DNA from: Deltaproteobacteria bacterium
GTDB taxonomy: Bacteria > Desulfobacterota > Desulfobulbia > Desulfobulbales > Desulfurivibrionaceae
Assembly: GCA_013349285.1 (NCBI GenBank)
Contig: DUZU01000011.1
Coordinates: forward strand, 1 to 64,000
Reading direction: 5' to 3'
Length of the DNA stretch: 64,000 nucleotides
Position 1 is the stretch's first letter; each line of letters starts with the position of its first letter. A model generated the notes under the pieces. It saw only the letters and a program-made list of their open reading frames with translations. It was not told the origin of the DNA and did not search any database. Both the position numbers and the translations under genes were made by a program. Shown piece after piece: positions 47,305 to 48,807 of the stretch.

Positions 47305-47577
47305 TCAACAGCAATTATTTTTGGATTTGCCCAGCAGCTGATTAAAGATGGCCTGAGCACAGCCGACCCCGGCCTGGACCTTGATCGCCGTAACCGAACA
47401 ATTAGTGGCGCAAGCACCGCACTCCATACAGGCATCCCGCCGCACTATTTCAGCTTTTCGGCCATTTAAGCGAAACACCGCGTGGGGACAAACCTCAAGA
47501 CACATCCCGCAGCCGACGCAGCGAAGCTGATCCAATTCGAGGGTTACCACCTCAGGCAAATAAACAAAGTCAGCCAC
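47305..47577 (-). CDS. hgcB: HgcB, 2x[4Fe-4S] ferredoxin of the mercury-methylation pair
   Basis: CVGCGMCLEVCP and CMECGACATNC motifs, AGVGCAQAIFNQLL, C-terminal CC pair; immediately downstream of hgcA. Confidence 0.9.
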   Translation of the reverse strand: MADFVYLPEVVTLELDQLRCVGCGMCLEVCPHAVFRLNGRKAEIVRRDACMECGACATNCSVTAIKVQAGVGCAQAIFNQLLGKSKNNCC

Positions 47578-47584
47578 TTAGCCC

Positions 47585-48604
47585 CTACCCCCTAAAAAGC
47601 AGAAAAAACCACCAACCGCTTCCCGCGACAATTGAACAAACCTGGGCGGGAACCGCCAGACGCATCTCTTTCTTCACCCCGGAAAGTGAGGTATAGGTCG
47701 ACGCGCCGGTAAAATTCATCCCCAGGTATGAAGATACCGCCGTGCAGATTACCCCCCAAGCAAGATCCGCCCCGGCATTGATTTGCCCGGCAAGCAAGAA
47801 ATGACTCAAGCAAATCATGGCGGCCACCGCCAGACCGGCGACACCCCCTTTAACGGCAAAGGCTCGGCCCGGCAGATACGGCAAGAGCAGCGGAGTAAGC
47901 ACCCCACCGCCAAACACCCCGGCCAACAGGTAAACAAGCGGCCACCGGCCGACCTCAAGGCTGTTTTGTTGAAAATCACCGGTTCCGGCCAAGCCGCTGA
48001 TCACCAAGACGGCGGCCATGGCAAACAGCAACCATTTCCCGGCCATGGTCATCTCCACCGGAATCAGGGCCAGACGCTCACGAAACGGAAAAGTCTTGCG
48101 CCGCATGGCCGGGGTGGCCACCATATTATTGGCAAGAAACAAAGGCAGATCACGGGCCATCACCGGCCCATACCGCACCGTAAACCCGCACCGTTTTTTA
48201 ACATGATGGGCGGCAACCCCGGGAGCGCCGAGCTGGGGAACCACAATCGTCCGATGCCCCACCAGCTCATGCAAACGACTGGCCTTGACCCTGAGCACCA
48301 GTTCGGTTGTGCCGAAACTGCCCTTGCCGGCCGCGCACCAGACGTTGATGCCAAAGGTCTCCAGCACCACAAGCCAGGCATCGATCCCGGCCAGCTTACC
48401 CCGCAGATGATCAAAACTGAGCTTGTAATTTGCGGTCACCAGCACCGGCGAATCAGGACCTGGCGCTCCCACTCCGTAGAGACCGGGCTCCACCGTATAA
48501 CCCATACGGCCAAAGCCCGAGCGCACCAGGGTAGTCCCGAGCCAATCCCGAAGAGACATCTCTGTCGCAACTAACGGGACTGGTCCGACTGCGGTTTCCA
48601 GCAC
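47585..48604 (-). CDS. hgcA: HgcA, corrinoid-binding membrane protein of mercury methylation (uninterrupted part; frame extends upstream through an in-frame UGA)
   Basis: Cap-helix motif NVWCAAGKGSFGT, SPVLVTANYKLSFDHLR, C-terminal TM segments; followed by hgcB. Confidence 0.93.
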   Translation of the reverse strand: MLETAVGPVPLVATEMSLRDWLGTTLVRSGFGRMGYTVEPGLYGVGAPGPDSPVLVTANYKLSFDHLRGKLAGIDAWLVVLETFGINVWCAAGKGSFGTTELVLRVKASRLHELVGHRTIVVPQLGAPGVAAHHVKKRCGFTVRYGPVMARDLPLFLANNMVATPAMRRKTFPFRERLALIPVEMTMAGKWLLFAMAAVLVISGLAGTGDFQQNSLEVGRWPLVYLLAGVFGGGVLTPLLLPYLPGRAFAVKGGVAGLAVAAMICLSHFLLAGQINAGADLAWGVICTAVSSYLGMNFTGASTYTSLSGVKKEMRLAVPAQVCSIVAGSGWWFFLLFRG

Positions 48605-48730
48605 CTTGGTAACAAAAGGCTGCCGGGTGATTTCAACTCCTGCCCGAGGAGGGATTTTAGGTCCTCAACAGGCCTCCTGAACCGGAGGTTGAATCATGGT
48701 TATCTCGGGAATTTGTTTTTCTCCATTCAT
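48605..48730 (-). other. hgcA: candidate selenocysteine recoding site and N-terminal extension of hgcA
   Basis: Same frame as hgcA: MNGEKQIPEITMIQPPVQEAC-(UGA)-GPKIPPRAGVEITRQPFVTK then the ORF-track GTG; TGA at 48667-48665; hairpin CUCCU-CGGGC-AGGAG downstream. Confidence 0.55.
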
Positions 48731-48766
48731 CGGTTACAGGATAATCTATTTTTTACAAAAAAAAAA

Positions 48767-48785
48767 GCCCGACATAAAGCCGGGC
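48767..48785 (-). terminator. intrinsic terminator of the AICAR transformylase gene
   Basis: Minus strand GCCCGGCTTTATGTCGGGC followed by a long T run. Confidence 0.8.
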
Positions 48786-48807
48786 CTAAAAAAAATATCA
48801 AAAAAAA

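Follow-up and report, generated by a model that had tools for sequence, protein, structure and literature searches.

The DNA analysed here (the window) is a stretch of 64,000 nucleotides from a Deltaproteobacteria bacterium (assembly GCA_013349285.1, contig DUZU01000011.1), and its minus strand carries adjoining genes for the mercury methylation proteins HgcA and HgcB. The hgcA frame, which ORF calling begins at GTG 48604, extends upstream to an ATG at 48730, with a second ATG at 48697, and closes with a stop before 47585. The sole in-frame interruption of this extended frame is a TGA at 48667-48665, lying directly 3' of Cys21 (codon TGT) in the motif C-U-G-P-K; the gene is otherwise intact. 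With the TGA read as selenocysteine (Sec22), the full frame (47585..48730, minus strand) encodes 381 residues, Sec22 included, of which the N-terminal portion translates as MNGEKQIPEITMIQPPVQEAC-U-GPKIPPRAGVEITRQPFVTK-VLETAVGPVPLV. The coordinates, the frame, the TGA position and the two ATGs, together with the downstream hgcA and hgcB, are as an earlier sequence-only reading of the locus had described them. In a profile search the product matches the HgcA family NF040863 with 420.6 bits against a curated cut-off of 275 bits, and the cap-helix motif N(V/I)WCA(A/G)GK is present as INVWCAAGKG. N129, W131 and C132 are invariant, as are both Cys21 and residue 22 (TGA or Cys, 61/61), in a full-length alignment of 61 HgcA sequences that were selected for carrying the motif and in which TGA was read as Cys. 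An AlphaFold model of the protein has long C-terminal helices, as expected for the membrane domain.

The adjoining downstream gene, hgcB (47305..47577, minus strand), encodes a ferredoxin that matches NF040864 with 118.9 bits. It has a Cys (GVGC) at the position equivalent to Cys73, and its product ends in CC immediately before a TGA (47305-47313). A second Sec at this C-terminus was considered and rejected: after the terminal CC, relatives variously have TAA, TAG or TGA, and the codon is therefore read as a stop. A few relatives have an HgcB with a single Cys before TGA.

Among close relatives the hgcA ATG lies 14-21 codons upstream of the UGA, with a good Shine-Dalgarno sequence in several. 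In the present gene ATG 48730 stands 21 codons before the UGA and ATG 48697 stands 10 codons before it, and we prefer the former as the start because 21 codons better suits the range observed in relatives. No sigma-70-type promoter was found upstream of this hgcA. The arrangement TTGACG-~17 nt-TAGGGT, which is likely a promoter, lies upstream of hgcA in several close relatives (L084, L104, L106, L102, L100, L108, L110 and L101) and is not visible here. A terminator-like hairpin with a T run (48765..48787, minus strand) marks the end of the upstream gene and separates that gene from hgcA.

Downstream of the UGA is the hairpin that the sequence-only reading had pointed to (CCTCCT-CGGGC-AGGAG in the DNA). 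This SECIS-like element, CUCCU-CGGGC-AGGAG (48637..48651, minus strand), has an apical loop that begins 19 nt after the UGA with G at loop positions 2-4, and it was found to covary in relatives. When a hairpin is defined by a stem of 4 bp or more, a G within the first two loop bases and a loop start 16-27 nt after the codon, it is present in 77/78 of the TGA forms of hgcA versus 7/24 of the Cys forms. Across 12 relatives the 5-bp stem is paired in 60/60 cells, with compensatory two-sided changes at 4/5 pairs; this test omitted two family rows with odd or short stems (L131 and L132), which slightly flatters the hairpin, and upon their addition the same five pairs are paired in 66/70 cells. None of 500 shuffles matched the stem in pairing or covariation score (nor, at 0/500, was any as good on most measures), and the true register was the best of seven, outscoring six slid registers. 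In other HgcA groups the hairpin is shifted by one or two nt either way. When 43 nt of the present sequence are folded in isolation, the minimum-energy structure is a different one, because the GAGGA that follows the U pairs with UCCUC, and the SECIS case is consequently founded on comparison and not on energy. Nor can UGA and Cys forms be told apart by free energy alone (Mann-Whitney p 0.15), for which reason the comparison used covariation and a hairpin score under constraint.

How the UGA is read was examined at the corresponding column in homologues. HgcA loci came from a genome scan and from the order to which this organism belongs (147 genomes), with frames read upstream and TGA shown as U. 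At the position following the conserved Cys, the 111 loci have TGA in 78, TGC in 18 and TGT in 6, such that 102/111 have either TGA or Cys; the statement in the sequence-only reading that many HgcA homologues have a Cys pair was right (24 Cys-codon loci of 111). Nine loci are unassigned at this column, of which seven are truly without the pair and two were unscorable (L075 runs off the end of its contig and L070 has no readable tail). Neither TAA nor TAG was ever found at the column among the HgcA loci scored. Furthermore, in the 60 nt from the TGA to GTG 48604 (48605..48664, minus strand), a stretch missed by stop-to-stop ORF calling, pairwise comparison of nine close hgcA genes gives 78, 99 and 261 differences at the first, second and third codon positions, and by this third-position bias the stretch is one that evolves as translated coding sequence. 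Taken together, the homologue column and the coding-type evolution rule out that the UGA is simply a stop, that the frame is open by chance, or that one sequencing error created the TGA. A more elaborate version of the stop, in which the UGA truly terminates a leader peptide or lies within a 5' UTR, HgcA is made from GTG 48604 or another internal start and the hairpin is regulatory, would gain from the lack of a clear, strong Shine-Dalgarno sequence at either ATG (a point the earlier reading had also made), from the AGGAGG immediately before the UGA, and from the domain model: counted from the GTG, its match starts at residue 9, which leaves the whole domain outside the tail. Such an arrangement is nonetheless very improbable in light of the 24 homologues in which a Cys codon occupies exactly the same column and is read through, the absence of TAA and TAG, and the coding-type evolution from UGA to GTG. 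In a draft genome (75 contigs, 89% complete) either a sequencing error or a pseudogene mutation might have turned a Cys codon into TGA, but this explanation is refuted by recurrence: 77 further loci have the same TGA, and they come from separate assemblies, one-contig genomes among them. With the rest of the gene intact as well, we regard it as the least credible explanation of all, with a negligible chance of being correct. Elsewhere in the set, two HgcA domains from draft genomes have isolated stops, a single in-frame TGA in L064 (GKP-TGA-NDSP) and an in-frame TAG in L125 (TAN-TAG-KLTFD) where Tyr is normal; both look like errors or decay.

A last alternative accepts the codon and questions the organism, supposing that the Sec codon has been kept while the Sec pathway was lost, in which case the UGA would truncate HgcA. 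The sequence-only reading had proposed that the four sel genes be sought and had named their absence as a refutation, which does not apply, since two of the four are present: selA (634.8 bits) and selB (359 bits) were found and are both intact, while neither selC nor selD was found in the assembly. Matches to the tRNA-Sec model in this genome were not counted as selC, being Leu, Ser and other tRNAs according to ARAGORN, and matches to selD were set aside because sequence and gene neighbourhood pointed to ThiL and HypE. Both genes missing here are near-universal among relatives in the family: a tRNA-Sec match above cut-off is present in 67/77 of the hgcA genomes, and selD in 20/22 of the family genomes examined, nearly always with an in-frame TGA of its own. 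In one relative (G037) selC adjoins glyQ, a gene essential to bacteria whose glycyl-tRNA synthetase is of this type, and glyQ was likewise not found in the present assembly. Since selC's neighbour in that relative is also missing, the absence of selC and selD looks like an assembly gap; the simplest reading is that selC, selD and glyQ are probably missing through one absent genome stretch or contig. Loss of the pathway is also opposed by the intact selA and selB and by a formate dehydrogenase that this genome also encodes (alpha subunit, C22:27117-29114, L163), whose classical Sec site still reads TGA in frame (CARLUHAPTVASL), and it is, in our estimation, highly unlikely. Having selA does not mark out the UGA forms from the Cys forms, as 75/77 of the hgcA genomes carry it.

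We are therefore highly confident, from sequence comparison, in reading this hgcA as a selenoprotein gene in which the UGA specifies Sec22; the conservation of the column, the coding evolution around it, the covarying hairpin, the presence of selA and selB and the second Sec-type gene of this genome each lend support to the Sec reading first proposed from the sequence. From this evidence we infer actual insertion of Sec at residue 22. Translation would start at ATG 48730 (or 48697), SelB with Sec-tRNA and the hairpin ~13-28 nt past the UGA would insert Sec beside Cys21, and translation would then run on into the corrinoid and membrane domains.

In the AlphaFold model, built from an alignment led by this HgcA, the corrinoid and membrane domains are predicted with high reliability (mean pLDDT 91.9, mostly >90), and residues 1-30 have pLDDT values of about 50-63, which places the pair on a flexible tail that is predicted to be disordered. 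According to one proposal, Hg(II) or methylmercury is shuttled by the Cys pair at the C-terminus of HgcB (PMC7305189); in HgcA, cobalt is ligated by Cys93 (PMC11588087). By analogy, and given the predicted flexibility of the tail, the likeliest role for the Cys-Sec (or Cys-Cys) pair of HgcA, and one that is somewhat favoured, would be that of a soft-metal ligand pair by which Hg(II) or the product is taken up or kept; the tail pair could then exchange Hg(II) (or product) with the HgcB C-terminal Cys pair and with the Co-Cys centre of HgcA. The pair is not indispensable, as seven HgcA among the 111 loci are without either Cys-Cys or Cys-Sec. In the 6/6 pair-less cases for which an hgcB sequence was available (HgcA L118, L098, L103, L117, L114 and L073; HgcB L156-L160 and L073), the partner HgcB has GEGC in place of GVGC. 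The pair-less proteins are probably one lineage spread across several families of the order, so the GEGC change may have been a single event. A broader proposition, that in Desulfobacterota a Sec-Cys tail is the usual state of HgcA and not a rarity, and that it forms half of an Hg(II) relay with HgcB, would take the GEGC change in the lineage without the pair as a hint that the two sites change together; it is tentative and in our view rather doubtful.

Hg(II) has a higher affinity for selenolates than for thiolates, and for this reason the presence of Sec in HgcA bears upon the handling of mercury ahead of methylation. There is also a practical consequence, in that many hgcA genes risk annotation with a wrong start that drops the Cys-Sec tail.

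HgcA with Sec is already published, and the present case is an independent rediscovery and a further good example. Haft and Gwadz (2023, J Bacteriol 205:e0025922) reported HgcA and HgcB as selenoproteins, as cited in PMC11588087, and a 2026 review (PMC13188914) includes HgcA under NF040863 with the motif CU (example WP_250697417.1) and selenoprotein HgcB under NF040864 with the motif GVGU. The HgcA family was not found by name in the 2008 GOS paper that the review cites for it. What is added here is a clear record of SECIS covariation and a count across one order and other Desulfobacterota. Going by the papers that cite the 2023 report of selenoprotein HgcA, the present protein belongs to the same family, has the same CU motif and has its UGA in an N-terminal tail aligned with the Cys of homologues; it comes from a different genus, and no essential difference was seen. 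The experimentally studied HgcA of Pseudodesulfovibrio mercurii ND132, in which Cys93 is named as the key Cys, is alike in its corrinoid domain and in the cap-helix Cys within N-V-W-C-A-A-G-K-G (PMC11588087, PMC7305189), as well as in its five-helix membrane domain and hgcB partner, this being a comparison by published description; an N-terminal pair is not mentioned for it in PMC11588087 or PMC7305189. Selenoprotein HgcB (NF040864, GVGU) is the partner ferredoxin of the same system, whereas the HgcB encoded here has Cys (GVGC) instead.
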